Origin: a virus
Length of the DNA: 49,921 nucleotides
Strand: one strand, 5' to 3'
IMG/VR virus record: IMGVR_UViG_3300017917_002570
Span: 1 to 49,921 of that record
Both the position numbers and the translations under genes were made by a program. The stretch's first letter is position 1. Every line of letters starts with the position of its first letter. The notes under the pieces are model-generated. The model made no database searches and was not told the DNA's origin. It worked only from the letters and a program-made list of their open reading frames with translations. Positions 32,264 through 49,900 of this stretch are shown in pieces.

Positions 32264-32629
32264 ATGTCAGTCCACATAAACAATAAAACCTTCAATGCTG
32301 AGTATCTATCATCCCCAGAAGAGATTCGTAAGGGTATGATGGGTAGAAACTCATTGGATGGTTGTATGGTCTTTAAAATGGGTAAAGGACACCATTCATT
32401 TTGGATGAAGAATTGTCTAATACCACTTGATATTGTTTTTGTTCTCAATAACAGAATCAATCAAATACATTCAAACTGTCCACCTGCAGAATCTCATAGA
32501 ATGAATCCACCGAAATACACGGGTATTGCTGACCATGTAATTGAATTTCCGGCAGGTACCACCGACGGTTGGAGGGTTGGGGATAGAGTTGCTATGTATT
32601 TGGGGTCTCCTCAGAATCCGGTTAAATAA
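32264..32629 (+). CDS. DUF192 family protein
   Basis: A 121-residue protein from MSVHINNKTF. EEIRKGMMGRNSLDGCMVFK, then HSFWMKNCLIPLDIVFVLNN and DHVIEFPAGTTDGWRVGD match DUF192 closely (R-x-G-x-M-x-R, F-W-M-K-N-x-x-I-P-L-D). Cellular DUF192 proteins are often exported; this copy has no signal peptide. The function is not established. An upstream TTG at 32237 is unlikely as start because of the divergent promoter. Its 3' end overlaps the oxygenase gene by eight bases, convergent. Confidence 0.85.
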   Translation: MSVHINNKTFNAEYLSSPEEIRKGMMGRNSLDGCMVFKMGKGHHSFWMKNCLIPLDIVFVLNNRINQIHSNCPPAESHRMNPPKYTGIADHVIEFPAGTTDGWRVGDRVAMYLGSPQNPVK

Positions 32630-33095
32630 GTTTATCTATTTTCATTATTTTAAACAAATCTTTTTTTAGAAAACAAACCAGAGTATAACGATATCCTTCC
32701 GATACATTTTTAACTAAATGTCTTTCATTTTTGGTAAAATATACAAGTTGATTCTTTTTTGGTTGGATTGTAATATTATCGAAAACTAATTCTCCACCGG
32801 TAAAATTGTCATTTAAAAAAGAAACAAAAGAATATGGTTCAAAATGTGTATGTGGATGTTCAACCATATTGATGGTGTTATCTACACGTTGTATTCGTAT
32901 TCTATCCATCATATCCAATTGTAGACCAATTTTTCTTAAAAATGAAAACTCACTGAACACTCCCGTAATATCTATACCTTTATATCTATAAATCTTATCC
33001 ACTTGAGTATATTCTCGTTGAATATTATTTTCATAATATTCAATAAGTTCTTTAGCTTCAATGTTAGTCATTAATTCGGTATAAATTACAATCAT
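32622..33095 (-). CDS. 2OG-Fe(II) oxygenase-like protein (prolyl hydroxylase type)
   Basis: A 157-residue protein. EHPHTHFEPYSFVSFLNDNF, then TGGELVFDNITIQP, NQLVYFTKNERHLVKNVSEG and YRYTLVCFL follow the double-stranded beta helix of P4H-like oxygenases, with the distal His (ERHLV) and the Arg that binds 2-oxoglutarate (Y-R-Y). The proximal H-x-D metal pair appears as H-T-H, an unusual change. The enzyme may hydroxylate protein or nucleic acid; activity is uncertain because of the altered ligand. Confidence 0.65.
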   Translation of the reverse strand: MIVIYTELMTNIEAKELIEYYENNIQREYTQVDKIYRYKGIDITGVFSEFSFLRKIGLQLDMMDRIRIQRVDNTINMVEHPHTHFEPYSFVSFLNDNFTGGELVFDNITIQPKKNQLVYFTKNERHLVKNVSEGYRYTLVCFLKKDLFKIMKIDKLI

Positions 33096-33096
33096 A

Positions 33097-33771
33097 TTAA
33101 TTTTCTTCTTCTACTACAATTGGAGTTATAAATTCATATTTTACCTTAGGTTTAACTTTTTCAAATACCCAAAAGTATGAGTGGTACTTACGTGCATGTT
33201 CCTGTTTTGTCCATTTGGTGCCAAAACTATTAATACGAACATTAGACGTCAATACAAACATGTCTCTTGGATAGAATCCAATTTGCATTGCCATATTCAT
33301 TATTAAACAATGGGTAAAGTGATTCTTACCTCCCGATACTGTGTCTTGACATTTCATTACAACAAATCCACCCTTTTCACATACTCGATATAGTTCCTTT
33401 AATGTGTTGTAATAATTCTCAGTTAATTCTCTATAATTTGAATACCCTTCAAATCTTTTTGCTATGATTGAACTACCCTCTTTGTTACCTTTATATGATG
33501 AACCTGCAATAACAAACGGAGGGTCATACATTATACTTTTCATACTCCCGTCACCGAAAGGTAAGTTTTCTGAACTCGCTTCAACTACCGTATCGTTAGC
33601 GGGATAGATATCTGATTTATTTACGGGTGAAGGTAAATCTTTCCAAAATGCACCTTTAGAGTAGGTACAATCTAAATCAAATCTCTCGATACCATATAAT
33701 TCCATAATGTTCTTTATGGCCTCATAATTTGAATTGTAGACACTTTTTACGGGTTTAAAATCTTTTTCCAT
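33097..33771 (-). CDS. N4/N6 amino-type DNA methyltransferase-like protein
   Basis: A 224-residue protein. SIMYDPPFVIAGSS is the D-P-P-F catalytic motif IV of amino (N6-adenine/N4-cytosine) methyltransferases. LYRVCEKGGFVVMKCQDT is a typical following strand, and KYHSYFWVF the C-terminal one. The SAM-binding F-x-G motif is not obvious; DCTYSKGAFW near the N-terminus may take its place. Likely base methylation of DNA, with restriction evasion or regulation as the role. Confidence 0.75.
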   Translation of the reverse strand: MEKDFKPVKSVYNSNYEAIKNIMELYGIERFDLDCTYSKGAFWKDLPSPVNKSDIYPANDTVVEASSENLPFGDGSMKSIMYDPPFVIAGSSYKGNKEGSSIIAKRFEGYSNYRELTENYYNTLKELYRVCEKGGFVVMKCQDTVSGGKNHFTHCLIMNMAMQIGFYPRDMFVLTSNVRINSFGTKWTKQEHARKYHSYFWVFEKVKPKVKYEFITPIVVEEEN

Positions 33772-34639: not shown

Positions 34640-35998
34640 ATGAAGAAAAAAATATTATTATTGTCTGACGACTTACGAATGACATCGGGGATTGCAACAA
34701 TGTCAAAAGAAATTGTATTGGGAACATTACACAAATACGATTGGGTTCAATTAGGAGCAGCAATTAAACATCCTGAATATGGTAAAATTGTTGACATTAA
34801 TGATGATGTAAGGGCAAGAACAGGTGTTAAAGATGCTAATTTAAAAATTATTCCATATAATGGATATGGTGACATTGCTGTTCTTCGTAAATTAATTGCA
34901 GAGGAAAAACCTGACGCAATATTACACTTTACAGACCCACATTATTGGCAATGGTTGTATGATGCTGAACATGAAATTAGACAACACACTCCAATTTTAT
35001 TCTACCATATTTGGGATGATTTACCAGACCCTCAATATAATAGGGATTATTACGAATCATGTGATTGGTTGGGATGTATTTCTAAACAAACTTATGGTAT
35101 TGTACATCGTGTTGGTAAAAGAACCGATAAGGTTACATATAAACCATTAGAGGATTGGCAAATAAGTTACGTTCCTCACGGAATTAATCCAGAAACATTT
35201 AAACCATTAGATACAATATCTGATGATGTTAAATCACACATCTATGGAGATAAGGAATATAATTTCATTTTATTCTACAACAATAGAAATATTAGAAGAA
35301 AGCAACCATCGGATGTAATTTACTCATACAAACTATTCTGTGATAAATTACCAAAAGAACATGCCGATAAATGTTTATTATTGATGCACACCAATCCAGT
35401 TGATGAGAATGGGACGGATTTAATTGCTGTTAAAGACGCGTTGTGTCCTGACTATAATGTTAAATTTACAACATTAAAATTAGAACAAGATAAACTGAAT
35501 GAATTTTACAATGTTGTTGATTGTACAATTAACATCGCAAACAATGAAGGTTTTGGTTTAACAACCGCCGAATCATTAATGGCGGGAACACCAATCATTG
35601 TTAATGTGACTGGTGGTTTACAAGACCAATGTGGGTTTAACTATAGTGCAGATGATTATATAACATTTGGCTCATTACATAATAAAAGAACACACGGTTC
35701 AACATTACATGGTGAGTGGGTTGCACCTGTTTGGCCATCGGCAATTAACTTAAATGGTTCAGTACCAACACCGTACATCTTTGATGATAGAGTTAATGAT
35801 GATGAGGTGGCGAATGCAATTGCTACAGTTTATGCATGGGGTAAGGAGCAAAGAAAAATAAAAGGATTAAAAGGTAGAGAGTTTGTAATTAACAATTTAT
35901 CTAATAAAATAATGTGTGATAAAATGATTGAGGGTATTGAACAAACCTTAGATAATTTTAAACCAAGAAAGAAATTTGATTTATATAAAGTAATATGA
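34640..35998 (+). CDS. GT4-type glycosyltransferase
   Basis: A 452-residue GT-B-fold enzyme. KILLLSDDLRMTSGIATMSK is the N-terminal Gly-rich acceptor side, DYYESCDWLGCISK sits mid-protein, and the C-terminal part has ANNEGFGLTTAESLMAGTPI, the E-x7-E nucleotide-sugar-binding motif of GT4 enzymes. It transfers a sugar from an NDP donor with retention; the sugar is unknown. Coupled to the next gene by ATGA overlap. Confidence 0.85.
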   Translation: MKKKILLLSDDLRMTSGIATMSKEIVLGTLHKYDWVQLGAAIKHPEYGKIVDINDDVRARTGVKDANLKIIPYNGYGDIAVLRKLIAEEKPDAILHFTDPHYWQWLYDAEHEIRQHTPILFYHIWDDLPDPQYNRDYYESCDWLGCISKQTYGIVHRVGKRTDKVTYKPLEDWQISYVPHGINPETFKPLDTISDDVKSHIYGDKEYNFILFYNNRNIRRKQPSDVIYSYKLFCDKLPKEHADKCLLLMHTNPVDENGTDLIAVKDALCPDYNVKFTTLKLEQDKLNEFYNVVDCTINIANNEGFGLTTAESLMAGTPIIVNVTGGLQDQCGFNYSADDYITFGSLHNKRTHGSTLHGEWVAPVWPSAINLNGSVPTPYIFDDRVNDDEVANAIATVYAWGKEQRKIKGLKGREFVINNLSNKIMCDKMIEGIEQTLDNFKPRKKFDLYKVI

Positions 35999-37242
35999 GT
36001 AAACCGTTTTTATTATTTAGAGGACCAGTGAAAACAAGAAGTGGGTATGGTGCACATTCAAGAGATTTATTACAAGCACTTTACGAAATGGATTTGTTCG
36101 ATATTAAAATTGATAGTTGTATGTGGGGTTCCACACCGATGACTGCATTAGAAAATAATCTATACCATAAATGGATAGAAAGTAACATCATAACACAATT
36201 AGATAAAATACCTGACATTTATATTCAAGTAACGGTACCTAATGAATTTCAAAGAGTCGGTAAATTTAACATTGGTATAACCGCAGGTATTGAAACAACC
36301 ATCGCACCTAAAGATTGGGTTGATGGTTGTAATAGAATGGACTTGGTGATAACAACATCATCATTTTCAAGAGATGTTTTAATACAAACAGTTTACAATG
36401 AAAATGAAAAAAATACTGGTAAGTTAATTAAACAACATAAAATAGAAAAACAAATGGAAGTTTTGTTTGAAGGTGTTGATACATCAATATTCAATGATAA
36501 CTACACAGGCATTGATATTGACATCAAAGAAGATTTCGCTTATTTGTTTGTTGGTCATTGGTTAAAGGGTGATTTGGGTCAAGATAGAAAAGATGTGGGG
36601 ATGTTAATAAAATGTTTCGCAGAATCCTTTAAGGATATGGATGATAGACCTGCGTTGGTGCTTAAAACATCGTCTGCTGGATTTTCAATTAAAGAAAGAG
36701 AAAATTTTAGAAAAAAGATTGAAGGATTAGTGAGTGAACATAAAAACCCACCATCAATTTATTTGTTATTTGGTGATCTTACAGATAATGAAATGAATAA
36801 TTTATATAATCATCCTAAGATTAAGTCTATGGTTACAATAACAAAAGGTGAAGGTTTTGGTAGACCTCTATTAGAATTCTCTATGACGGGTAAACCAATC
36901 ATCGCATCTAATTGGTCAGGACATAAAGATTTTTTACCTATGGATAAAGCAATCATGGTCGGTGGTAAATTAACTGAGGTTCATGATAGTGCAGTTGATA
37001 CTTTTATACTTAAAAGTTCTAAATGGTTTACCGCAAATTATGGTGAAGTTGTGGAAGTGTTTAAATTAGTTTATAAAGATTATGACCAATTCTTAGAGAA
37101 ATCCCAAATATTAAAAGAAGATAATAAAACTAAGTTCTCATTAGATGCAATGAAAGAAAAATTTAAAGAGATAATTGGTCCGTTTACCATAACACCAAAA
37201 GAAGAGAAATTGGTTTTACCTAAATTAAAAAAAATTAAATAA
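35995..37242 (+). CDS. GT4-like glycosyltransferase
   Basis: A 415-residue protein. FRGPVKTRSGYGAHSRDLLQ gives the N-terminal loop, and TKGEGFGRPLLEFSMTGKPI the C-terminal E-x7-E-like motif of GT-B retaining enzymes. SNWSGHKDFLP follows as in GT4. It probably acts after or with the 34640 enzyme. It overlaps its neighbours on both sides (ATGA and TAATG). Confidence 0.8.
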   Translation: MSKPFLLFRGPVKTRSGYGAHSRDLLQALYEMDLFDIKIDSCMWGSTPMTALENNLYHKWIESNIITQLDKIPDIYIQVTVPNEFQRVGKFNIGITAGIETTIAPKDWVDGCNRMDLVITTSSFSRDVLIQTVYNENEKNTGKLIKQHKIEKQMEVLFEGVDTSIFNDNYTGIDIDIKEDFAYLFVGHWLKGDLGQDRKDVGMLIKCFAESFKDMDDRPALVLKTSSAGFSIKERENFRKKIEGLVSEHKNPPSIYLLFGDLTDNEMNNLYNHPKIKSMVTITKGEGFGRPLLEFSMTGKPIIASNWSGHKDFLPMDKAIMVGGKLTEVHDSAVDTFILKSSKWFTANYGEVVEVFKLVYKDYDQFLEKSQILKEDNKTKFSLDAMKEKFKEIIGPFTITPKEEKLVLPKLKKIK

Positions 37243-37514
37243 TGGCAAAGAAAAAGAAAACAAGTGAAGAAATTGTAGAATCTGTTGTTAGTAAATTATC
37301 AGTTCCCGAACAACCATTGATTGAAACATTTATGCCCTGTGAATGGGTTATTCAATTTGACAATGACGAGCCTCAATTATTCACAACCGCAGATGAATCT
37401 GTTGAATCGCCTGAAGTTGTAATTAGAATACAAAATACAAGTGAGGGTTATATTAAATTTACCGACCCAAAAACTGGTAAAACATTTAAATTTTTTGCAA
37501 GACCAAAAAAGTAA
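37242..37514 (+). CDS. Small beta-rich protein, paralogue of the 37517 gene
   Basis: Ninety residues. A basic start (MAKKKKTSEEIVESVVSKLS) is followed by a beta-rich domain: EWVIQFDNDEPQLFTTADES, VVIRIQNTSEGYIKFTDPKT and the end KTFKFFARPKK. The domain repeats in the next gene, so it arose by tandem duplication. It has no enzymatic motif. A structural or binding protein, perhaps the acceptor of the glycan, is a guess. Confidence 0.6.
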   Translation: MAKKKKTSEEIVESVVSKLSVPEQPLIETFMPCEWVIQFDNDEPQLFTTADESVESPEVVIRIQNTSEGYIKFTDPKTGKTFKFFARPKK

Positions 37515-37516
37515 TA

Positions 37517-37762
37517 ATGAATTTCAAATTTTTTAAAGGTGATGACACACCTTATATTACATTTACACCACAAACAAGACTTATTCCTGAGAATAATGTA
37601 GAGTTTTGTTTTCAATTTGGAGACAATGAACCGATTGTATTTGCTACAGGTCCTAATGAATGTCATATTCATTTAGCACCGAGTCCTGAAGGAAACATGA
37701 CATTCACGGATAACAATAATAACGTGTTTAAATTATTTGCAAGGGAGATTGAAAATGGTTAG
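37517..37762 (+). CDS. Small beta-rich protein, paralogue of the 37242 gene
   Basis: Eighty-one residues: MNFKFFKGDDTPYITFTPQT, then VEFCFQFGDNEPIVFATGPN and MTFTDNNNNVFKLFAREIEN. The FxFxFGDNEPxVFAT and FTD-x4-x-FK-[F/L]-FAR patterns match the 37242 protein. Ends by overlapping the next start (ATGGTTAG). The function is unknown. Confidence 0.6.
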   Translation: MNFKFFKGDDTPYITFTPQTRLIPENNVEFCFQFGDNEPIVFATGPNECHIHLAPSPEGNMTFTDNNNNVFKLFAREIENG

Positions 37763-38015
37763 AATATTTAAATTTTTTCATGGTTTTTCTGAAGGTGATT
37801 TTACTTTATATACAAATGGTAATCGAAGATTAACTGTATCGTGGGATGGTACCACAACAATAGACGCAGAAGATGAGTTAGTAAGATTGATGTCCGAAGA
37901 AATATCACGTACTATTGATGATGAAATTATTGATACATTAACAAGAAGAATAAACGGAGGTGGTAATTTAGATTATTTGAATCATTGGATGGATATAGGA
38001 GGACAAAGAGCATGA
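37755..38015 (+). CDS. Small hypothetical protein with conserved-looking C-terminus
   Basis: Eighty-six residues from MVRIFKFFHGFSEGDF. The first half resembles the start of the 37517 protein (FKFF-x-G). The second half is helical (EISRTIDDEIIDTLTRRING) and ends LDYLNHWMDIGGQRA, a form I recall in small structural phage proteins. The in-frame TTG at 37737 is a less likely start. It overlaps both neighbours. Confidence 0.6.
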   Translation: MVRIFKFFHGFSEGDFTLYTNGNRRLTVSWDGTTTIDAEDELVRLMSEEISRTIDDEIIDTLTRRINGGGNLDYLNHWMDIGGQRA

Positions 38016-38197
38016 GATGTGAAAGACATAGTTGGGATACAGAAGATAGAGAATGGTGTTGGAGATGTGAAGAATTAACAATTGAAGAAAATAAACGAAA
38101 ATATGAAGATAAGTTACGCAATAACAGTTTGCAACGAATTGGAGGAGATAAAGAGATTAGTCCCATTCATTCTGAATCACAAAAGACCTCAAGATGA
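38012..38197 (+). CDS. Small zinc-finger-like protein overlapping the next gene
   Basis: Sixty-one residues from the ATG that overlaps the previous stop (ATGA). MRCERHSWDTEDREWCWRCE has a Cys-x2-His and a Cys-x2-Cys pair, a possible zinc site. The C-terminal half overlaps the 38103 glycosyltransferase gene by 95 bases in another frame and looks like low-complexity sequence. The N-terminal motif and coupling suggest a real gene with a relaxed end. Confidence 0.45.
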   Translation: MRCERHSWDTEDREWCWRCEELTIEENKRKYEDKLRNNSLQRIGGDKEISPIHSESQKTSR

Positions 38198-38723
38198 GAT
38201 TGTAATTCTTTATGATGCGAAGAATGGAAACCCTGAAGTATTAGACTTTTTATTACCTTTTAATATAAAACCAAATGTACAAACGTGGAGATGTTTCGAT
38301 TGGAATAATAACTTTGCAGATTGGAAGAATATTTTAAATGGGTATTGTTCAGGTGATTACATTTATCAGATTGATGCAGATGAAATGATAAGTGAATATA
38401 TGATTGAAAATTTACATACCATTCTTGAAATGAATCCTAATGTGGATTTAATATTTGTTCCAAGAATTAATACCGTAAATGGAATTACTCAAGAACATAT
38501 CGATAAGTGGGGATGGAATGTGAATGAAAATGGTTGGGTTAATTTTCCTGATAGACAAGGTAGAATTTATAAGAAACATTTAAAATGGTATAGTAGAGTA
38601 CATGAAAGAATTATAGGTGGTAGTAAATTTGCTAGTCTACCAAATGATGAAGAATATTGCATTCAACATCATAAAACAATAGAACGTCAAGAAATTCAAA
38701 ACAAATTTTATAGTTCAATATAA
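38103..38723 (+). CDS. GT2-family glycosyltransferase
   Basis: About 206 residues from MKISYAITVCNELEEI. The opening strand and N-E-x-x-x-I pattern, then PQDEIVILYDAKNG and YIYQIDADEMIS (D-x-D metal/nucleotide-sugar motif) define a GT-A fold of family 2. NTVNGITQEHIDKWGWNVNE and a C-terminal His-rich QHHKTIERQEI suggest a full catalytic domain. The start at 38103 is preferred over 38082, which lies in the overlapping gene. Confidence 0.8.
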   Translation: MKISYAITVCNELEEIKRLVPFILNHKRPQDEIVILYDAKNGNPEVLDFLLPFNIKPNVQTWRCFDWNNNFADWKNILNGYCSGDYIYQIDADEMISEYMIENLHTILEMNPNVDLIFVPRINTVNGITQEHIDKWGWNVNENGWVNFPDRQGRIYKKHLKWYSRVHERIIGGSKFASLPNDEEYCIQHHKTIERQEIQNKFYSSI

Positions 38724-38754
38724 ATTATAAACAAAATTACGTATATTATACAAT

Positions 38755-39336
38755 ATGGAAAAAGTAGAATTTATAATACCAACATATAACAGACCATACC
38801 ATTTAATGTGTACAATCAATTCTATATTTGCACAAAGAAGTGAGGATTGGTCTATACATGTGGTGGCGGATTGTCCACCTGAAGGTACTTTAGATAAAAT
38901 AATTAAATATTTTGAGGGTGATGATAGAATTAGATTTACCATATTACCTGAAAGATATAACGATTGGGGTCACACACCCAGAAATTATGGATTAAAACAC
39001 GCAAAAGAGGAGTGGGTCATCATGACTGGTGAAGATAATTATTATACTCCAGTATTTGTTGACCATATGTTTAGTAGGGCACATTCGGATGTACATTTTG
39101 TTTATTGTGATATGATTCACAATTGGATTAATCATCAGTACATACATCTTCAATGTAAACCTGAATGGGGTCACATTGATATCGGTAATTTTATGGTAAG
39201 AACTAAATATGCTCAACAAATGGAATTAGATGTTACAAACATACAAGCAGATGGTAAATTTGTCGATGAGTATCTACAAAAATTCCCCAAAGGTAAGATT
39301 GAAAAGATAAGTAAACCATTATACGTACACAATTAA
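38755..39336 (+). CDS. GT2-family glycosyltransferase (short)
   Basis: A 193-residue GT-A enzyme. VEFIIPTYNRPYHLMCTINS is the family-2 N-terminal signature; GHTPRNYGLKHAKEEWVIMT followed by GEDNYYTP replaces D-x-D by E-D-N. The C-terminus is short, with no membrane helix. It belongs to the glycan operon, 31 bases after the previous gene; this gap may carry its own initiation signals (AATATGG). Confidence 0.8.
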   Translation: MEKVEFIIPTYNRPYHLMCTINSIFAQRSEDWSIHVVADCPPEGTLDKIIKYFEGDDRIRFTILPERYNDWGHTPRNYGLKHAKEEWVIMTGEDNYYTPVFVDHMFSRAHSDVHFVYCDMIHNWINHQYIHLQCKPEWGHIDIGNFMVRTKYAQQMELDVTNIQADGKFVDEYLQKFPKGKIEKISKPLYVHN

Positions 39337-39342
39337 AAAAAT

Positions 39343-40098
39343 ATGAATAAAGTAATTTTAGCAACGGGTTCAGATTTTAATTATTTAAAAAAAATCGAAC
39401 CTTATTTAGGGTCATTAGAGATGAATTCAAACTTTGACGAGAACATCTTAGTTTTATTAAGTGATGAAGATTTTACTATAAACAGTTTAAAAATTTCATT
39501 AGCTAAACAATCTCCATCTTCTATTAAGGCGTTAAGTCCAATAAATTGTACACAACATGGTGAATTTATTTTTGCCCCGTACTTTGATAAATTTAACGAT
39601 GATGATGTTATTTTTTATACTGATGGTGATATGTTCCTACAAAGAAACATTACAGATGAAGAAAGAGAAATGTATTCCAATTTTAAAGATGGTGATGTTT
39701 ACATAGGATATAACGCCTCACCAACAGATACATTATATGACGAAGCACCGAGGTTAGGTTACAATGGTGTAATGTTTGCAGAATTTTTTGACATTAATTG
39801 GAAAAAAATTAAAGTTTATAATACTGGTTTAATTGCCATGAATAAAAAGACATGGAAGAAATTAGCAAACGATTACATTCCATTATATCCTTTAGTGGAT
39901 AAGATGTTTAAGCATTACGCAAAGCAACAATGGTTAATTTCATTTTTAATTAATACTAAGTCAGACTATAACGTAATCGAAATGCCATATGATATTCACA
40001 ACCATAGACACTATCCAAGTCCTATTGGTACAAAACAAGTTGAAAATGGTGACGTTTATTTCGAAGATAAGTTAGTACTTTTTAAACATAAATGGTAA
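39343..40098 (+). CDS. Nucleotide-diphospho-sugar transferase-like protein
   Basis: A 251-residue protein. VILATGSDFNYLKKIEPYLG opens a GT-A-like fold and VIFYTDGDMFLQRNIT carries D-G-D, the metal/sugar-nucleotide motif of GT8-like enzymes. KVYNTGLIAMNKKTWKKL then YDIHNHRHYPSP fit the later strands. The donor sugar is unknown. Ends overlapping the glf start (TAATG). Confidence 0.7.
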   Translation: MNKVILATGSDFNYLKKIEPYLGSLEMNSNFDENILVLLSDEDFTINSLKISLAKQSPSSIKALSPINCTQHGEFIFAPYFDKFNDDDVIFYTDGDMFLQRNITDEEREMYSNFKDGDVYIGYNASPTDTLYDEAPRLGYNGVMFAEFFDINWKKIKVYNTGLIAMNKKTWKKLANDYIPLYPLVDKMFKHYAKQQWLISFLINTKSDYNVIEMPYDIHNHRHYPSPIGTKQVENGDVYFEDKLVLFKHKW

Positions 40099-41189
40099 TG
40101 TTTGATTATTTGATTGTAGGTGCAGGATTATATGGATCAATATGTGCACATGAACTAAACAAATCAGGTAAAAAGGTTTTAGTCATCGAATCTCGTAATC
40201 ATATTGGTGGTAATTGTTACACTGAGAATAGAGACGGTATTAACATTCACACATACGGCCCTCATATTTTTCATACATCAAATGAAGATGTGTGGAAATG
40301 GATAAACCAATTTGTGGAATTTAATAATTTTAGATATAGTCCCGTTGCAAATTATAATGGTGAATTATATTCATTACCATTTAATATGTGGACGTTCAAT
40401 AAATTATGGGGTGTCACAACACCTCAGGAAGCAAAAGATGTTATTGAATATCAATCAAAGGAAATTAATGAACCAATTAATTTAGAAGAGCAGGCAATCA
40501 AGTTAGTAGGTAAAGACGTCTACGAAAAATTAATTAAAGGTTACACCGAGAAACAATGGAGAAAACCTTGTAATGAATTACCAAAAGAAATCATTAAAAG
40601 ACTACCGGTTAGATTTACATATGATAACAATTATTTCAATGACAAATATCAAGGAATACCTATAGGTGGTTACACTCAAATATTTGAAAAATTATTGGAT
40701 GGTATTGATGTAAGGTTAGGGATGGATTATTTAAAAGATGATTTACCAGAACATAATAAGGTAATTTATACTGGACCGATTGATAAATTTTTCAATTATA
40801 AATTTGGTGAATTAGAATATAAAACCACTCGTTTCGAACATTTTAAAAAAGACACGGACAATTATCAAGGTTGTTCCGTTATAAATTATACCGATTCAAT
40901 AACACAGTACACTCGTGTTATTGAACATAAACATTTCGAAAAAGAGAATATCAGTAACAACAGTTGGGTAACTTACGAGTATCCAACTCAATACAATGCA
41001 AATGAAACTGAACCTTATTATCCCGTTAACGATATGGACAATAATCTAATATATCAAAAATATAAAATGGAGTCAGATAAACTAACTAATATACATTTTG
41101 GAGGTAGATTAGCTGAATACAAATACTATGACATGCATCAAGTAATTGACTCGGCATTAAATTTTATTAAAACTGAAATAAACAAATGA
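40098..41189 (+). CDS. glf: UDP-galactopyranose mutase
   Basis: A 363-residue flavoprotein. FDYLIVGAGLYGSICAHELN is the FAD-binding GxGxxG strand, SRNHIGGNCYT the next contact, THGPH-like TYGPHIFHTS and later FNMWTFNKLWG and YTEKQWRKPCNELP the substrate-side motifs. It converts UDP-galactopyranose to UDP-galactofuranose, the donor for galactofuranose transferases. This is the clearest biochemical clue to the operon's product. Start at 40098 gives TAATG coupling. Confidence 0.95.
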   Translation: MFDYLIVGAGLYGSICAHELNKSGKKVLVIESRNHIGGNCYTENRDGINIHTYGPHIFHTSNEDVWKWINQFVEFNNFRYSPVANYNGELYSLPFNMWTFNKLWGVTTPQEAKDVIEYQSKEINEPINLEEQAIKLVGKDVYEKLIKGYTEKQWRKPCNELPKEIIKRLPVRFTYDNNYFNDKYQGIPIGGYTQIFEKLLDGIDVRLGMDYLKDDLPEHNKVIYTGPIDKFFNYKFGELEYKTTRFEHFKKDTDNYQGCSVINYTDSITQYTRVIEHKHFEKENISNNSWVTYEYPTQYNANETEPYYPVNDMDNNLIYQKYKMESDKLTNIHFGGRLAEYKYYDMHQVIDSALNFIKTEINK

Positions 41190-42157
41190 AAAAAATTCTA
41201 ATACTTGGTGGATGTGGTTTTATTGGGGGTAATCTTTCAAAAAAATTAACCGATGAAGGTCACTTTGTTCGTAATGTGGATATTAAAAGACATCAATTCT
41301 TTACTAAATTTAATTCGGAATGGTTTCAAGGAGATTTAACTGACCCTCGTTTTGTATTTGATGTTATGTGTTTACCTGAGGGTTCATTTGATGAGGTGTA
41401 TCAATTAGCCGCGGACATGGGTGGTGCTGGTTACATTTTCACTGGTGAGAATGATGCAAAAATAATGCACAATTCCGCAATGATAAATTTAAATGTTTTA
41501 GATTCAGCATTAAGGACGGGTGTTAAAAAAATATTTTTCTCGTCATCCGCATGTGTTTATCCTGAACACAATCAGTTAGACCCAAATAACCCTAATTGTG
41601 AAGAATCTTCAGCATATCCCGCAAATCCCGATTCGGAATATGGTTGGGAGAAGTTATTTAGTGAACGACTTTATATGTCATATCATAAAAATTATGGTTT
41701 AGATATTAGGATTGGTAGATTTCATAATATATTTGGTCCATATGGAACATATAAAGGTGGTAAAGAAAAGGCTCCCGCAGCATTATGTAGAAAGGTTATC
41801 GAATCAATTGATGGTGGTGAAATAGAAATATGGGGAGACGGAAAACAAACTCGTTCATTTTTATATATTGATGAATGTTTAGAAGGGGTACGTCGTTTAA
41901 TGGATTCAGATTTTATTGGTCCTGTTAATATAGGAAGTGATGAAATGATTTCAATAAATGAATTGGCTCAGTGGATTATTGACATTAGTGGTAAAATGGT
42001 GTATATTAAGAATATATCAGGACCAACTGGTGTGAGAGGTAGAAATAGTGATAATAAATTAATTAAAGATAAATTAAATTGGTCACCGTCAAATTCATTA
42101 TATGACGGTTTGACTAAAACATATTCTTGGATTAAAGAACAAATTGAAAAAGAATGA
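41186..42157 (+). CDS. GDP-mannose 3,5-epimerase-like NAD-dependent sugar epimerase
   Basis: A 323-residue extended SDR. LILGGCGFIGGNLSKKL is the NAD-binding Gly motif, SSSACVYPE and EYGWEKL the Ser and Y-x3-K catalytic sites. LAADMGGAGYIFTG, IGRFHNIFGPYGTYKGGKEK, VNIGSDEMISINE and GPTGVRGRNSDNKLIKDKLN match, almost word for word from memory, plant GDP-mannose 3,5-epimerase, which makes GDP-L-galactose. Coupled to glf by ATGA. GDP-L-galactose or GDP-gulose as the product is inferred. Confidence 0.85.
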   Translation: MKKILILGGCGFIGGNLSKKLTDEGHFVRNVDIKRHQFFTKFNSEWFQGDLTDPRFVFDVMCLPEGSFDEVYQLAADMGGAGYIFTGENDAKIMHNSAMINLNVLDSALRTGVKKIFFSSSACVYPEHNQLDPNNPNCEESSAYPANPDSEYGWEKLFSERLYMSYHKNYGLDIRIGRFHNIFGPYGTYKGGKEKAPAALCRKVIESIDGGEIEIWGDGKQTRSFLYIDECLEGVRRLMDSDFIGPVNIGSDEMISINELAQWIIDISGKMVYIKNISGPTGVRGRNSDNKLIKDKLNWSPSNSLYDGLTKTYSWIKEQIEKE

Positions 42158-43257
42158 ACATAACATTTGTATTAGCGGTTTATAATAAATTAGATTTAAC
42201 ACAAAATTGTTACAATCGAGTTCGTGATTTATACCCAAACACTCCGTTGGTAATTAGTAGTGGTGGATCTTCAGACGGTACTAAAGAATGGTTAGAATCG
42301 TTAGATGATAATAATTTATCTTTCATACATGATGATGATAGATTAACGTTTTCAGAAACATATAATGCAGGTATTAAACTTGTGGATACTGAAAAACTTG
42401 TGTTAATTCATAATGACATGATTATAGGTGAAGGATTTTTAGAATCAATCGAAAGATTATTAGAACCTAACATGTTACTTTCATATACCACAATCGAACC
42501 ACCAATATTCAGGGGACATAAAAGACCTGGTAAAGTATTATTAGATTTAGGTTCGGGGTTTGAAAATTTCGATTACTTTCATTTCAATAGTTATGTTAAT
42601 CAATGGAAAGATAGTGATAACTTACATAATGGTGCGGTTTTCTTTATGAGTGGTTATAAAAAAATGTTTGTGGATGTTGGTGGGTTTGATGGATTTAGTT
42701 TTGTTCCCGCATTTTGTGAAGATGATGACTTTTTAATTCGTGCGAAACTAAAAGGATATGATTTAAAAACTTGTGATTCGGCAATAGTTTATCATTTTGT
42801 TTCGCAGACATCAAGATTTAGTGATGATTATAAAAATGAACGATTTAAATATGAATTGAACTCTAATAGAAATTTCATTAGGAAGTGGGGAATACCAATT
42901 TCCGCATTTAACGAGCTCAGGTATTGGGAAGATAAAGATTTTAAATATAAGACTTTCAATATGGGTTTAACCACAAATAACCAATCTAATTTGATTAACG
43001 TGGAACCATTCTTCGATAAAATTGAATTAGGGACGATTCCTGAGGGTTATATTGAAAGTGAACAAGATAATACTCGTTACGATTTAAGGTCCAAATTTAC
43101 CCTTACAGATAACGTAGAAGTGATGATTTATGAGATTAAACCATTCACTCAAGAAGATATGTATACTTTACAAAAAATAAGATTATCAATACCTTATTAT
43201 GATGCGGGAGAATATGAGGTTGGTAATATGAGAATAGATATTAAAAAACCCATTTAA
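42154..43257 (+). CDS. GT2-family glycosyltransferase with C-terminal extension
   Basis: A 367-residue protein. MNITFVLAVYNKLDLTQNCY, then SSGGSSDGTKEWLESL and KLVLIHNDMIIGEGFL (N-D in place of D-x-D) give a GT-A family-2 domain of about 260 residues; VGGFDGFSFVPAFCEDDDFL holds the conserved E-D-D site. The last 110 residues are an acidic beta-rich extension (NVEPFFDKIELGTIPEGYIE) of unknown role, perhaps acceptor binding. Confidence 0.85.
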   Translation: MNITFVLAVYNKLDLTQNCYNRVRDLYPNTPLVISSGGSSDGTKEWLESLDDNNLSFIHDDDRLTFSETYNAGIKLVDTEKLVLIHNDMIIGEGFLESIERLLEPNMLLSYTTIEPPIFRGHKRPGKVLLDLGSGFENFDYFHFNSYVNQWKDSDNLHNGAVFFMSGYKKMFVDVGGFDGFSFVPAFCEDDDFLIRAKLKGYDLKTCDSAIVYHFVSQTSRFSDDYKNERFKYELNSNRNFIRKWGIPISAFNELRYWEDKDFKYKTFNMGLTTNNQSNLINVEPFFDKIELGTIPEGYIESEQDNTRYDLRSKFTLTDNVEVMIYEIKPFTQEDMYTLQKIRLSIPYYDAGEYEVGNMRIDIKKPI

Positions 43258-44105
43258 TGAATATATTAGTAACCGGAGGTGCAGGTTTTGTTGGCACTAA
43301 TTTAATTAAAAGACTATTAAAAGATGGTCACAATGTTACATCCTTAGACAATTACTTAAGTGGTTTTAGTTCTAATCATCAAGAAGGGGCAAATTACATA
43401 GATGGTGATGTTAGAAATTTAACATTATTTGATGATGTAAAATATGATATAGTATTTCATTTGGCGGCAATTGCGAGAATACAACCATCATTTAAACACC
43501 CTGTTGAATATTTTGAAACGAACACAAACGGTACTTTGAATATTGTTCAATATTGTATTAAAAATGATATACCGTTAATCTACGCCGGAAGTAGTTCACA
43601 CCATAGTGGTAAGTTTAAAAATCCATACACTTTTAGTAAAGACATTGGTGAAGAAATTATTAAACTACACCAAGAACATTTTAATTTAAAATCAAGTATA
43701 ACTCGTTTTTATAATGTATATGGTCCACATCATTTAAAAGATGGTGGTTATAGTACCGTAATTGGTAGGTGGGAAAAACAATATGATGATAACCTACCCT
43801 TAACAATTTATGGTAATGGTTCTAAAAGAAGAGACTTCACCCACATTGATGATATTGTTAATGCGTTGATTAAGATACAAAATAAAGAATCGTGGGGACA
43901 TACTTTTGAATTAGGTAGGGGGCAAAATTTTTCTTTGAATGAGGTTGCGGATATGTTTAAAAAAGAAAGAATTTATATGGAGGATAAACCAGGTGAAGCA
44001 CAAGAAACTTTATGTGAAAGCTCGTTGGCCAGATTAATTTTAGATTGGACCCCAATTATAAATTTATATGATTATATTGATGAATATAAAAAAAAGGGAC
44101 TATAA
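43257..44105 (+). CDS. NAD-dependent nucleotide-sugar epimerase/dehydratase
   Basis: A 282-residue extended SDR. ILVTGGAGFVGTNLIKRL binds NAD, VFHLAAIARIQPS and GSSSHHSG follow, and PYTFSKDIGE is the Y-x3-K site. VYGPHHLKDGGYS and GNGSKRRDFTHIDDIV match UDP-glucose/GlcNAc 4-epimerase-type enzymes. It could supply UDP-galactose to glf. Last gene of the operon; its stop lies inside the bidirectional terminator. Confidence 0.85.
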   Translation: MNILVTGGAGFVGTNLIKRLLKDGHNVTSLDNYLSGFSSNHQEGANYIDGDVRNLTLFDDVKYDIVFHLAAIARIQPSFKHPVEYFETNTNGTLNIVQYCIKNDIPLIYAGSSSHHSGKFKNPYTFSKDIGEEIIKLHQEHFNLKSSITRFYNVYGPHHLKDGGYSTVIGRWEKQYDDNLPLTIYGNGSKRRDFTHIDDIVNALIKIQNKESWGHTFELGRGQNFSLNEVADMFKKERIYMEDKPGEAQETLCESSLARLILDWTPIINLYDYIDEYKKKGL

Positions 44106-44626: not shown

Positions 44627-45631
44627 CTACATTATTGTTAAAAGAGCGTAAGTTATCATAATTGAAATCCACACAATTAAAGCCTTCAAATAAGTCATAA
44701 AACCAGTATGGAAATACTTTTGACCTATTGGTAAACATTTATGTGATGGGGAAATTAGATATGCAGAATACTCTAAAGTAAAGAATAATACGAAATATTT
44801 CATACCAAATACACTAGTTAATAAACTCACAATACTTGCATATTTCGCTGAAGAACCTAACATGAAAGATGAAAGGAATGAGATAACCGAAACCACTAAA
44901 ATGTATTGGGGTTTACTATATTGTTTTATATAAGATTCAATTACATCATAATAGGAACCAACTAAATTACCTAAAATGATTACTACTGCAACAATCCAAA
45001 TCAATTCCCAATTAACATAATCTAATAGTTTTTTCCATGTATTAGAATAATACACTAAGTAGATTGTAAACACAGTAAATGCACCAAAATAATAATCGGT
45101 GAAACAACTAATAAGAATAGTACCCAAAAATGGTAACACCACATTTGTCACATTCTTCCAATTAATAGGATTATCGTTGACTTCGATATCGATTTCATCT
45201 TCATCCATAGATAAGATGTAGTAACTAATGTACAGTCCTGATATTAAAAGTAGTGGCCAAACATATGACATGAATTGCATGTAAGTTAAACCTAATACCG
45301 CCATTGGTATGATAACAGTTTTCTCTAATGGTGACCATAAGTAATAGTGATGGGTTGCAAGATAATCGATAATACCAAACTTCTTACGTTTCTTATTATC
45401 AATTGGTGCAATACTATTCAACATTGATGCTGAAAGTGCAACACGACCAGGTATTGGTAATATACCTCCGAATAGTGATACTAAGAATACTACCATTCGT
45501 TTAGACTTAACTTTTTGTTCAAGTAGTCTGAAGATGTCCATAAGGTATCCTCTTTCTTTGAGGATACCTGTTACGAACATAATGAATATTAAATAGACAA
45601 GGAACTCTTGTCCTTTGATTAAAATCTCCAT
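44627..45631 (-). CDS. DUF401-like inner-membrane permease-like protein
   Basis: A 334-residue polytopic membrane protein with about nine or ten hydrophobic segments (EFLVYLIFIMFVTGIL, FLVSLFGGILPIPGRVALSA, LWSPLEKTVIIPMAVLGLTY and others). The G-G-x-L-P-[I]-P-G-R-V and S-P-S-H-K-C motifs resemble DUF401 membrane proteins, which are related to anion/carboxylate transporters. A transporter is unusual in a phage. It overlaps the outer-membrane gene at 45619 by 13 bases, suggesting a joint envelope function. Confidence 0.7.
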   Translation of the reverse strand: MEILIKGQEFLVYLIFIMFVTGILKERGYLMDIFRLLEQKVKSKRMVVFLVSLFGGILPIPGRVALSASMLNSIAPIDNKKRKKFGIIDYLATHHYYLWSPLEKTVIIPMAVLGLTYMQFMSYVWPLLLISGLYISYYILSMDEDEIDIEVNDNPINWKNVTNVVLPFLGTILISCFTDYYFGAFTVFTIYLVYYSNTWKKLLDYVNWELIWIVAVVIILGNLVGSYYDVIESYIKQYSKPQYILVVSVISFLSSFMLGSSAKYASIVSLLTSVFGMKYFVLFFTLEYSAYLISPSHKCLPIGQKYFHTGFMTYLKALIVWISIMITYALLTIM

Positions 45632-46503
45632 GCGAATATAATTGTGGTTCTTGATTGTTTTGCGTCTTGATTAAGACCTGGCATATGTTCAATGTTTAAA
45701 TAACCTTTGTTATTAAAACGATATTGTAAAAGTGGACCGACGTACCATTCTTGTGACCCACCATCATAATCGTTATATCTAAACATGTGAGAAACACCTA
45801 ATGTTAAATCGTTATTGATAATGTTTGCATATGATGCGGTGTACGCATATTCATCTTCACGAAGTTCTTTTACTCTCGATAAATTACCTTCATAAATTGC
45901 GTTGAATCCCCATATCCCTCTTTTACCTATTCTATCACCTAATAGTAATTTTGGTTCAATACCCCAACGACCATCTAACATTTTTGTTTCCCAATAAAGA
46001 GTTGGGTTACCCCATAATTTGCCCCAATCGGCAAGAGCATATCGAAACTCCCAAGAGAAACCTCTCCATTTGAATTCTTTATCTCCATTATACCCATCAT
46101 AAACTGTATGTGAATATAAATCTAATTGAAGTCGTTTACCCAACCCGAATGTAAATTCATCTCTCATTCTAATTTGAGCCGGTCCATTTCTTCTTTGTCT
46201 AATGTCAAACCACTTCTCATACATTGTAGTTCCTGGTGGGTTCATCACATAAACTCTAGTGGAAGCGAACATTCTCATTGTTGTCCAAAGTGGTTGACCA
46301 TAAGGACCGACTTTGGTCATTAAAGGTACTTTCTTTGCGGTAACAACGATTTCTTGTAATTGATTAGGGACACTGTCCGTTTGAACTTTTAAGGATTGTT
46401 CTGAACCTTTCTGAATTGCACTACTACTGTATTGACCATATGACAATGTTGTAGTAAACAATAACACTAACATTAGCGATAGTGTTGTGATTGTTTTTCT
46501 CAT
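45619..46503 (-). CDS. Outer-membrane beta-barrel-like protein with TonB-box-like motif
   Basis: About 294 residues from MRKTITTLSLMLVLLFTTTL, a signal peptide ending near SYGQ. LQEIVVTAKKVPL follows, similar to the plug-start motif (EVVVTA) of TonB-dependent proteins. The remaining sequence alternates polar and aromatic residues, as in beta-barrel strands (FTFGLGKRLQLDLYSHTVYD, YVGPLLQYRFNNKGYLNIEH), and ends in a C-terminal Phe (FAWRF), the Omp insertion signal. It is shorter than a full TonB receptor. The upstream ATG at 46539 overlaps the -7 box, so 46503 is preferred. Confidence 0.75.
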   Translation of the reverse strand: MRKTITTLSLMLVLLFTTTLSYGQYSSSAIQKGSEQSLKVQTDSVPNQLQEIVVTAKKVPLMTKVGPYGQPLWTTMRMFASTRVYVMNPPGTTMYEKWFDIRQRRNGPAQIRMRDEFTFGLGKRLQLDLYSHTVYDGYNGDKEFKWRGFSWEFRYALADWGKLWGNPTLYWETKMLDGRWGIEPKLLLGDRIGKRGIWGFNAIYEGNLSRVKELREDEYAYTASYANIINNDLTLGVSHMFRYNDYDGGSQEWYVGPLLQYRFNNKGYLNIEHMPGLNQDAKQSRTTIIFAWRF

Positions 46504-46536
46504 TTGTTTTTTGTTTAAGAAAAGTTTATTATTACT

Positions 46537-46544
46537 CAAATATA
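46537..46544 (-). promoter_or_regulatory. -7 box of a promoter for the outer-membrane protein operon
   Basis: The complement of 46537-46544 is TATATTTG, a full -7 match, 33 bases before the start at 46503. No TTTG is found at the usual -33 distance (TTCC there). It suggests separate transcription of the envelope gene pair. Confidence 0.5.
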
Positions 46545-46567: not shown

Positions 46568-47230
46568 TTACTTTTCAATTAAAAATATACCCAAACCATT
46601 CCAAAAGTCTTTAGAATCTTCTCCAATTGTATGTATACTTTTTTGATATGTGACAATTGATTTACTTTCATCTAAAGCCCTGATAGCACCTTCTTTTTGC
46701 CAATTCCAATCATCAACAATTAATATACATTTATCTGACATATGTGGGATTATTTTTTTAATGGTGGTATATTGATCATAGTATTTTGTTTCACCATCAT
46801 AAAATATAATATCTAATGGTTCAATTGTGGAATAATCAAATTCTAAATAATTTGCACGATACGCACTTATGTTTTCTACATTACCAAATTTCTTCACATT
46901 TGATAGAAACTCTTCTTTTGGGTCGGTGGATTGATTTCTTAAGTAAGATGTCATCTTTTGACTAACACCATTTGGCATCAAATAAGGTGAACTCCAATTA
47001 TCAATCCCCGTTGCTTTAATGTTATTACCATATATTGCTGAACAGAATGTTGAACCTCGGAACACACCAATTTCCAAGTAATTAGCACCATCAATATTAC
47101 AAATGTTATTGAGGAAACATTTAACTTTATTACTGGTGATTCCTTGAATGTTAAGAATATCTAAAGTTAATTTAGAAACTTCTAATTCACCCCATTGAAT
47201 TGAATCTTGTATATGTTTAATATAGTCCAT
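46568..47230 (-). CDS. Class I SAM-dependent methyltransferase-like protein (methyltransferase 24 type)
   Basis: A 220-residue protein. GANYLEIGVFRGSTFCSAIY is motif I (E-x-G-x-x-x-G), ATGIDNWSSPY the acidic end of strand 2 and LDIIFYDGETKYYDQYTTIK motif IV-like. CILIVDDWNWQKEGAIRALD closes the fold. It resembles Methyltransf_24 enzymes that act on sugars or small molecules. Last in a four-gene unit with radical SAM, U32-like and 2OG-oxygenase proteins; start overlaps the upstream stop (TAATG). Confidence 0.75.
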   Translation of the reverse strand: MDYIKHIQDSIQWGELEVSKLTLDILNIQGITSNKVKCFLNNICNIDGANYLEIGVFRGSTFCSAIYGNNIKATGIDNWSSPYLMPNGVSQKMTSYLRNQSTDPKEEFLSNVKKFGNVENISAYRANYLEFDYSTIEPLDIIFYDGETKYYDQYTTIKKIIPHMSDKCILIVDDWNWQKEGAIRALDESKSIVTYQKSIHTIGEDSKDFWNGLGIFLIEK

Positions 47231-48255
47231 TATTTTTTCTTTTTATGGTCCGCAACAATGTCACAGTAATTACAATCCCAACACTGGAATTTACATTTCT
47301 TAATTTTATTTCTCCAACCATCTAATTCTTCAGCAGGTACACCATCTAAATAAAGTTTGGATGTGTCTGATAAATTTTCCTTACCATCAACGTAATTTCT
47401 AATTAATTCCATAGTTTCATCTAATCGATTAAAACTATCTCTACCATGCATTTTGAATACATCAATGTAATTTAAAAATTCATCATATTCTTTTTTGAAT
47501 GGTGGAATGGTTGCAGCTTTAAAGAAGAATGCATTAATTTCTTTTTCCCATTTATATTCACAAGTTACTTTAGAAATCTCATGTCTGAAGTATGGTAATT
47601 CATTATCTGATTTTAAGTTGTTATATGAATAGTGTTCATCCATCATAGGACATCTACCTAAACAACCTTCGTTGGTTAACAAAGCAATCTTTACATATCT
47701 TCCATGTTTCTGTTGGAATTGTAATTGTGCTCTTCTGATGTTCTTTAACTCCTCTACGTCCCTCATCAAAATTCTATCAACATTGATGTAATCAAATCCC
47801 TGTTCTGCGTTGTACCAGAAGTCTTGTGCAGTTGCAACTTTTCTTAATATAGTATTCTTAATTTCCATTTCAGGGAAATGATTCTTAATACCCATTGCAA
47901 CCCAATGTGCGTGTGCTAAAGTGATACTTCTTAAGCCTCTATCGTACAATGGTTTAAGATGTTCAATGAACAACTTGTAGTTATCAAATTTAGGTGATAC
48001 GTTTACATTGTTGAATGTTGCACTCACTTTAATACCTAACACCTCTTGTATCTGAAGTGCATTATCGATAACAAGGTTTACATCTTCTGGTCTAAACACC
48101 GAACCCATAGCATCTTGTGTGAATGGGGGTATTCTACAAGTAAAGTAGACATCGTATATCCAATCTTTATATTCTTGTAAGAATGGTAGAAATTTATTCA
48201 TGAAATCTTCCTCAGATAACATGGGGTTTAATGGGATTGAAAATATTTTACTCAT
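47230..48255 (-). CDS. U32-like Fe-S TIM-barrel protein
   Basis: A 341-residue protein. VYFTCRIPPFT and GLRSITLAHAHWVAMGI suggest a TIM barrel, and LLTNEGCLGRCPMMDEHYSY the N-E-G-C-x-G-x-C-P motif of peptidase U32 family (as in RlhA and UbiU/V), whose Cys residues bind a [4Fe-4S] cluster. FKMHGRDSFNR matches the later F-K-x-x-G-R. A further cluster CKFQCWDCNYC ends the protein. U32 relatives carry out Fe-S-dependent hydroxylations. It overlaps the radical SAM gene by eight bases. Confidence 0.7.
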   Translation of the reverse strand: MSKIFSIPLNPMLSEEDFMNKFLPFLQEYKDWIYDVYFTCRIPPFTQDAMGSVFRPEDVNLVIDNALQIQEVLGIKVSATFNNVNVSPKFDNYKLFIEHLKPLYDRGLRSITLAHAHWVAMGIKNHFPEMEIKNTILRKVATAQDFWYNAEQGFDYINVDRILMRDVEELKNIRRAQLQFQQKHGRYVKIALLTNEGCLGRCPMMDEHYSYNNLKSDNELPYFRHEISKVTCEYKWEKEINAFFFKAATIPPFKKEYDEFLNYIDVFKMHGRDSFNRLDETMELIRNYVDGKENLSDTSKLYLDGVPAEELDGWRNKIKKCKFQCWDCNYCDIVADHKKKK

Positions 48256-49255
48256 GTGTTGCTCCTTCTAAACATCCACCACAAATTCCGTTACATAACG
48301 TGTCATAGAAATGACAGTCCAAACAGTCTTTTGGTAATGTGTAATTTTTATGGTTTTCTATATATAATTTATCAAATTCTTCTCTTAATGATAATACATT
48401 ATTTTCACCAGTAATGTTCAATACGTTATCTATTTTAACTTTATCTTCTAATGGATAACAATGTATTGAACTACCGTCGGGAAAAATATCTAATGGCATA
48501 AATCCACAAATTGTTTTATACTCAGGTATTTTAAATGTTGCAAACCCTAATGAATTTTCCATCACAGCACTTTTTGTTTTACCTTCCCATAGACATGGAG
48601 GTACTTGACAATCCGATGTGATTCTAATATCATTGTACTTACCAAATTTAAGTATCTTAGTTATCTCAGAACCCATTTCTTTATTGTTAACCAGATAAGT
48701 GTTAGTTAAATCTAAACCAACTCTAATTGCATTGACTTTACCATCCAATTGATGATACAACCATTTAACATATTCATAGAAATTTTTCTCTTTCCAATTA
48801 CTTGACATAGTAATGGCTAAATACAATCTTGGGTGGTCATCAAATCCCCAAGTGTTTAAATAAGCGTCATATATTTCGGTGTAATTCTTTTTGAATAATA
48901 CCATTCTATTTTTCTCATCTAACTCAGCGGCATTTGGGAACACCCAACGAATATGTCTAATGTTTTTAATTATGAATTCTCTTGTGGTTTTACTAAACAG
49001 AAAGTTACTTACAAGATTGATTTTGAGACCTTTAGAAATGATATGTTCAACAATACCTGTGAAGTTTGAGTGTTGTGTTGGTTCTCCACCAAGTATTGTT
49101 ATCTCTTCTTTATCTTTATATAAATTGTAATGGTTAATTAACTCATCTACTTTAGATAAAGTCATTTCACCTAAGGTATGTTTGGTTCTTGCTTCTTCTT
49201 TGGTGAAGCAAAAAGAACATCCTTTAGCACATGTACCATTAATTACAAAATTCAT
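48248..49255 (-). CDS. Radical SAM protein with C-terminal Cys-rich (SPASM-like) region
   Basis: A 335-residue protein. NGTCAKGCSFCFTKEEA holds C-x3-C-x2-C for the SAM-binding [4Fe-4S] cluster; EITILGGEPTQHSNF is the G-G-E-P motif; a TIM-barrel-like series of strands follows. The C-terminal part has CGFMPLDIFPDGSSIHCYPL and CLDCHFYDTLCNGICGGCLE, seven or more Cys residues typical of SPASM/twitch auxiliary clusters, used to modify peptides or proteins. Directly adjacent to the oxygenase gene upstream. Confidence 0.85.
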   Translation of the reverse strand: MNFVINGTCAKGCSFCFTKEEARTKHTLGEMTLSKVDELINHYNLYKDKEEITILGGEPTQHSNFTGIVEHIISKGLKINLVSNFLFSKTTREFIIKNIRHIRWVFPNAAELDEKNRMVLFKKNYTEIYDAYLNTWGFDDHPRLYLAITMSSNWKEKNFYEYVKWLYHQLDGKVNAIRVGLDLTNTYLVNNKEMGSEITKILKFGKYNDIRITSDCQVPPCLWEGKTKSAVMENSLGFATFKIPEYKTICGFMPLDIFPDGSSIHCYPLEDKVKIDNVLNITGENNVLSLREEFDKLYIENHKNYTLPKDCLDCHFYDTLCNGICGGCLEGATHE

Positions 49256-49900
49256 TTAAACGTATCTAAATTGTCTGGTCTTTAGCCAATTTTGATTGGC
49301 GTCAGGTTCGTTATTAATATCAAATGCAACACCCACTCTTAAATCCCCATTCCATTGTTTGAATTCATGTTCAACATATGAAGAGAATATTGATATTTCT
49401 CCTGGAATGTTTGGAAGGTCAACTACATTGATACTACTATCAAATATACCCATTTTTTTTCGTTTAAACAAATATGTGGTGTGTGTTTTTTCAGATGAAT
49501 AAAGAAAACAATGCCCACTAAGTGCATATGGAAATTTCTTATAACTCATATTATCCATATGTTTATGTAGTCCAAGATAATCCCCCTGTCTAAAAATGTT
49601 TGCCCACATTTTAATGTAGAAATTTTCCCATCCTAATGCGTTGAAAATCAATTCTTTAATTTTTGCAACAAGTATGTCTGTTTCGGGTATTCCTAAATCT
49701 ATTAAGTTGTAATATGTGTGATAGTTTGTAATATTACTATGATTCACAATCTTCATGCGTAATTTACTTCCATCGTCAAGTCCCTTAATGTAAGATTCCC
49801 TTTCCAATATTTTATTAGAAAGGGAATTAGTTGTTGTAGGATCTATGAAGTCTGATGTTATAATACCATATTCATATGTCTCTAAATAATTTTCAATCAT
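49256..49900 (-). CDS. 2OG-Fe(II) oxygenase-like protein
   Basis: A 214-residue protein. GLHKHMDNMSYKKFPYALSG followed by HCFLYSSEKTHTTYLF, then PGEISIFSSYVEHEFKQWNG and DLRVGVAFDIN reproduce the H-x-H/H-x-D ... H ... R pattern of putative 2OG-Fe(II) oxygenases (PF13759-like): a double-stranded beta helix with Fe ligands and a 2-oxoglutarate-binding Arg. It probably hydroxylates the product of, or substrate for, the adjacent radical SAM enzyme. First of the four-gene unit in the window; the upstream region is outside. Confidence 0.7.
   Translation of the reverse strand: MIENYLETYEYGIITSDFIDPTTTNSLSNKILERESYIKGLDDGSKLRMKIVNHSNITNYHTYYNLIDLGIPETDILVAKIKELIFNALGWENFYIKMWANIFRQGDYLGLHKHMDNMSYKKFPYALSGHCFLYSSEKTHTTYLFKRKKMGIFDSSINVVDLPNIPGEISIFSSYVEHEFKQWNGDLRVGVAFDINNEPDANQNWLKTRQFRYV

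Follow-up and report, generated by a model that had tools for sequence, protein, structure and literature searches.

A U32-like protein and a methyltransferase beside tail-fiber-associated genes of T4-like aquatic phages: a candidate virion protein modification module

RESULTS

Four enzyme genes at the end of a viral record

The window, i.e., the whole stretch of DNA analyzed here, corresponds to a 49,921-base virus record from IMG/VR. An ORF list confirmed four intact minus-strand ORFs with the 0- to 8-base spacing or overlap described in the earlier note: RS starts at the base directly after the low end of OX, while the U32-like gene and RS overlap by 8 bases and MT and the U32-like gene by 1 base. 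The genes discussed below are as follows.

49256-49900, minus strand: OX, 2OG-Fe(II) oxygenase (PF13759, phrog_81), an optional accessory
48248-49255, minus strand: RS, radical SAM protein (PF04055) with a SPASM-like tail, a single-clade addition
47230-48255, minus strand: U32-like, TIM-barrel protein, N-terminal half of phrog_1458
46568-47230, minus strand: MT, class I methyltransferase (PF13578), C-terminal half of phrog_1458
45619-46539, minus strand: protein with a signal-peptide-like N terminus, read as an outer-membrane-type protein
44627-45631, minus strand: DUF401 membrane protein (PF04165)

The families assigned earlier to OX, RS, and MT hold up in Pfam searches, with scores of 28.9 bits for OX against PF13759 (cutoff, 27), 38.5 bits for RS against PF04055 (cutoff, 29.5), and 34.9 bits for MT against PF13578 (cutoff, 26.3). 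The predicted catalytic residues, whose loss in homologues would have spoken against the earlier proposal, are kept in the alignments of all three proteins. In OX, H114-x-D116...H178 and the 2OG-binding R188 are invariant in nine sequences; in MT, E53, G55, G59, D77, D145, D173, and D174, which comprise SAM-binding and acidic residues, are invariant in 27. The GGEP motif and Cys-rich SPASM-like tail ascribed to RS are both present, and the CX3CX2C motif from residue 9 (C9, C13, and C16), G56-G57-E58-P59, and nine C-terminal cysteines in a SPASM-like order are invariant among 16 relatives. A PDB sequence search with RS gave only weak matches (best, 0.016), and a search of cultured phages with RS alone gave none. 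The dN/dS values of the four genes, 0.015 to 0.15 between the window and its relatives, indicate strong purifying selection. The A-type Fe−S carrier gene reported at position 21522 was also verified by a match to PF01521.

Other parts of the window contain further enzyme genes. A second 2OG oxygenase gene (PF13640) lies beside an N6/N4 DNA methylase gene (positions 32622-33771). A plus-strand glycan-synthesis cluster with UDP-galactopyranose mutase, epimerases, and glycosyltransferases (positions 34640-44105) faces the four genes, and parts of it recur beside the module in relatives.

The U32-like protein combines a U32 fold match with noncanonical cysteines

The earlier designation of the third protein as U32-like is borne out by its predicted fold. 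An AlphaFold2 model (pLDDT, 87) has the U32 protein Mk0906 as its top PDB match (E = 4e-7; TM score of 0.66 on the target), with generic TIM barrels close behind. Aligned with hhalign to UbiU and its relatives, the phage family gave a sensible core alignment at a probability of 25% and a single-comparison E value of 0.0008; comparisons to single UbiU or UbiV sequences were uninformative. PF01136 was absent from the Pfam matches up to E = 1, the best of which, to PF01639, is not credible (17.2 bits against a cutoff of 25). A small U32 profile gave no significant match, and a PDB sequence search gave none at all. Among phage families, the protein matches phrog_36869 and phrog_1458 (~1e-92); together with MT, it constitutes the two halves of phrog_1458, a PHROG without a functional annotation.

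Characterized U32 proteins have roles in the hydroxylation of tRNA, 23S rRNA, and quinones (PMC6599085, PMC6747719), and the family has a four-Cys motif, CX6CX15-16CX3/4C, with variants in UbiU and UbiV (PMC6747719). In 46 sequences of the phage family, C198, C202, and C232 (C198-x3-C202-x29-C232) are invariant. The second C-terminal Cys cluster recognized earlier is likewise real and conserved in these sequences (C321-X3-C325-X2-C328-X2-C331), with no exceptions at C321 and C325 and conservation of at least 90% at C328 and C331. These seven cysteines fit neither the canonical motif nor its UbiU/UbiV variants. Because of this spacing and the lack of a PF01136 match, canonical U32 membership was rejected, and the protein is classed as U32-like. 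The CX3CX2CX2C cluster at residues 321 to 331 contains a radical SAM-type CX3CX2C spacing.

U32-like and MT form a conserved core next to tail-fiber-associated genes

Three samplings of viral contigs, begun from different starting proteins, and several smaller sets yielded 222 loci, which fell into 60 clusters at 90% identity; the 47 clusters with enough flanking sequence are counted here as lineages. U32-like and MT are one fused protein (U32-MT) in 39 of the 47 lineages and are encoded by adjacent genes in the remaining 8. In cultured cyanophages, U32-MT is a single protein of ~575 amino acids (T4-GC 354 in Syn19). In 42 of the 47 lineages, the U32-like and MT sequences lie just downstream of tail fiber genes and of three unannotated families, which we call F0, F2 (phrog_1604/2618), and F3 (phrog_1409); long tail fiber proteins precede F0. 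At least one of the three families occurs upstream in 45 lineages. The two lineages without any of them (L220 and L221) resemble the S-RIM14 type. The conserved core across phages is U32-like plus MT, accompanied by F0, F2, and F3. In cyanophage S-RIM14 itself (L083:1950-6791), ~6 kb with plastocyanin and 6-phosphogluconate dehydrogenase genes lies between F0-F3, on the upstream side, and U32-MT, and all of these families are retained.

The window ends 21 bases beyond OX and therefore lacks the fiber, F0, F3, and F2 genes that are found directly upstream in relatives. Two of these relatives (L003 and L004), with U32-like proteins 93% identical to that of the window, have the order F0-F0-F3-F2-OX-RS-U32-MT, and a third (L002), with 98% identity, has the same order, F0-F0-F3-F2-RS-U32-MT, without OX.

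U32-MT and F3 are each found in 123 of 50,697 phage records, and the organism counts of the two lists, compared as counts rather than record by record, match (77/38/8). A portal gene is present in ~467 Synechococcus, Cyanophage, and Prochlorococcus records, ~344 of which lie beyond the 123. In one scan of 84,980 bacterial and archaeal species, the U32-MT family had four matches, all on short MAG contigs of ~10 kb or less. At least two of these contigs carry F2/F3 or fiber-type genes, so the matches look like misbinned phage sequences, and a bacterial origin or bacterial homologues were rejected. The family is almost confined to phages.

F0 was modeled with AlphaFold2 at a pLDDT of 84. The model matches six-bladed kelch propellers in the PDB (E, ~1e-14), and its best viral match is a cyanophage sericin-1-like protein (3e-30). 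The N-terminal region of F0 has a weak match to the virion structural protein family phrog_20787 (1.7e-5), and in two loci (L162 and L163) F0 is part of a 2158-amino-acid protein at the fiber position. Trp and Tyr together make up 8.0% of F0, compared with 6.6% in unassigned neighbors, which is weakly suggestive of an aromatic modification target.

RS and OX are clade-specific or optional additions

The four-gene set, which the earlier note treated as one unit, was rejected as a conserved unit. RS, U32-like, and MT occur strictly together in the clade of the window, while RS is confined to that clade and OX is optional. U32-like follows RS directly in 104 of 104 cases, and in all 104 either F2 or OX directly precedes RS, with F0 and F3 next. 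In a tree of U32-like proteins, the presence of RS and the splitting of U32-MT into two genes each show a single change, and both changes map to one deep branch; RS was gained a single time, in the clade of the window, where U32-like and MT are separate genes. The protein type encoded at 45619-46539 follows MT in 8 of 8 RS-clade lineages. Cysteines C126 and C308 of F0 and C213 of F2 are kept only in the RS-bearing clade (L056 and L068). They were set aside as candidate RS target sites because all RS-bearing members belong to a single lineage, so that common descent confounds the signal.

OX is present in 10 of 80 close relatives; its absence from the relative with the 98% identical U32-like protein illustrates its optional nature. 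Across the 47 lineages, 2OG-type enzymes lie within 6 kb of U32-MT in 33 and tryptophan halogenases in 7, while DUF401 lies downstream of U32-MT in 19. On the U32-like tree, these neighbors change 11 times (2OG enzymes), 5 times (halogenase), and 5 times (DUF401). Cyanophage S-CAM4 has about a dozen 2OG-type genes, four of which (one DUF6445) are within its 9-kb U32 locus. DUF401 also occurs elsewhere in the S-CAM4 genome (159611-160660).

Halogenases occur at some cyanophage fiber loci

The crystallized flavin-dependent halogenase VirX1 was located in cyanophage Syn10 by means of its PDB sequence (6qgm). In the Syn10 locus (L228:6488-16128), VirX1 and a second halogenase are encoded directly behind the tail fiber genes, followed by a run of genes most of which match PF13759, PF13640, JmjC, or DUF6445. 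Neither F0/F2/F3 nor U32-MT was detectable at this fiber locus. The loci of S-WAM1 and S-RIM44 have a similar layout. The halogenase of HTVC008M is found among neck, terminase, and sheath genes and that of P-SSM2 near ribonucleotide reductase, neither being at the fibers. The role of phage tryptophan halogenases has been left speculative (PMC2984593), and the sections of a review considered here (PMC8407142) give no native substrate for VirX1. The Syn10 locus suggests that fiber proteins are its natural substrate.

DISCUSSION

We propose, with a probability of roughly 0.6, that the four enzymes are part of a dedicated module for the modification of tail fiber proteins. The likeliest target is a virion protein, since both the position of the core and its distribution among phages link it to tail-fiber-associated genes. 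To this extent, genomic context supports the earlier idea of a multistep oxidation or methylation of a virion protein; the four-gene set as its unit does not hold. From gene content, order, and co-occurrence, the conserved predicted catalytic residues, and the predicted folds, we infer what the module modifies, by what chemistry and in which order, and to what benefit, as follows. The substrates would be products of the genes immediately upstream, with the kelch-propeller fiber protein F0 or its partners F2 and F3 as the likeliest candidates; F2 and F3 could be true targets or helpers. The Fe−S-dependent U32-like domain would introduce a hydroxyl on a side chain, to which MT would then add a methyl group. 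Hydroxylation is suggested by a fold match rather than by close homology, and the preference for an aromatic side chain is a guess by analogy with U32 and halogenase chemistry. In the clade of the window, RS would add a further step and OX, in some members, another; other phages carry halogenases or extra oxygenases instead. Chemical changes to the receptor-binding surface would be the expected outcome, with effects on stability or host recognition.

The S-RIM14-type phages count on both sides. F3 and U32-MT are both present although ~6 kb apart, which we count for the module; the separation of the core from F0-F3 by that distance, metabolic genes included, counts against it, as does the lack of F0, F2, and F3 in the window itself. 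Late structural operons also hold unrelated passengers.

Other roles for these enzymes can be weighed against the same observations. Tailoring of a glycan, either a sugar made by the facing 34640-44105 genes or a glycan of the virion or host surface, would agree with that cluster and with the acidic triad pattern of MT (D145, D173, and D174), which we take to resemble that of TylF-type sugar O-methyltransferases. Cyanophage U32-MT loci, however, lack such a glycan cluster in the 5 to 8 kb around the module, and the constant partners are F0, F2, and F3, so we regard this explanation as unlikely. Slightly less likely still is an auxiliary role in which U32-like and MT act on host tRNA or metabolites. 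Such a role would follow a known hydroxylase/O-methyltransferase logic, as in TrhP followed by CmoB/TrmR on the tRNA wobble uridine and UbiUV followed by UbiG on quinones. It would also match the tRNA, 23S rRNA, and quinone substrates of characterized U32 proteins (PMC6599085, PMC6747719), but the phage protein lacks the canonical U32 Cys spacing and a PF01136 match, no conserved neighbor is related to tRNA or quinones, and across diverse phages its presence follows F3 and F0 rather than host metabolism.

The fiber operon could also accommodate U32-MT as a virion or assembly protein, i.e., a chaperone or fiber component that keeps the fold without enzyme activity, and tail fiber chaperones often occupy the position behind fiber genes. 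Against this, the cysteines show little or no variation in 46 diverse sequences, as do the acidic residues of MT and the SAM-binding glycines in 27, and we consider such a role improbable. Least probable of all is that U32-like is a noncanonical radical SAM enzyme performing other radical chemistry on the same fiber proteins. In ThiC, the cluster motif lies at the C terminus of a TIM barrel, and the C-terminal cluster of U32-like contains the corresponding spacing; nevertheless, a U32 protein ranks first among the fold matches, and ThiC is absent from the 50 matches listed.

Beyond the fiber modification module itself, it is tempting to assume that U32-MT, radical SAM enzymes, 2OG oxygenases, and VirX1-type halogenases constitute an exchangeable redox-tailoring island of T4-like aquatic phages that serves the modification of tail fiber and receptor-binding proteins, a hitherto unknown layer of virion maturation. 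We hold this wider view tentatively, at slightly under even odds. If true, it would also give phage halogenases a natural substrate. It would provide one testable role for abundant phage genes, namely, phrog_1458, 1417, 1604, and 1409, many cyanophage 2OG oxygenases, and tryptophan halogenases. If fiber tips undergo hydroxylation, methylation, halogenation, or cross-linking, then posttranslational chemistry that is invisible in the sequence would underlie the host range and receptor binding of abundant aquatic phages. The enzymes might also find use in modifying folded proteins.

Comparison with known systems

The U32 family (UbiU/UbiV, TrhP, and RlhA; PF01136) shares with the phage protein the TIM-barrel fold, conserved cysteines, and a core that aligns with UbiU and its relatives. 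The phage protein differs in lacking a PF01136 match, in having C198-x3-C202-x29-C232 instead of CX6CX15-16C, in its extra C-terminal CX3CX2CX2C and methyltransferase fusion, and in its near confinement to phages. Like the SPASM radical SAM peptide maturases (RiPP maturases), RS has CX3CX2C, GGEP, and a C-terminal Cys array in SPASM-like order and is encoded beside candidate protein substrates. Unlike them, its best SPASM model score (TIGR04085) is 15.9 bits against a curated cutoff of 27, no short precursor peptide was seen, and its candidate substrates are fiber-associated proteins. Campylobacter phages CP220 and CPt10 also carry a radical SAM cluster; it is an exchangeable five-gene block called metabolic, for which the portions of the report considered here (PMC2853527) describe no linkage to U32-MT or fibers. 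VirX1 of Syn10 is similarly a phage tailoring enzyme encoded directly behind fiber genes and among 2OG/JmjC-type genes, although its chemistry is different and its locus is without detectable F0/F2/F3 or U32-MT.

In the open-license literature searched, no fiber-linked modification by U32, radical SAM, or halogenase enzymes was described. By analogy, the module resembles a tailoring cluster in which the gene for the protein substrate accompanies the enzyme genes, the presumed substrate here being virion proteins and the enzyme set being undescribed.
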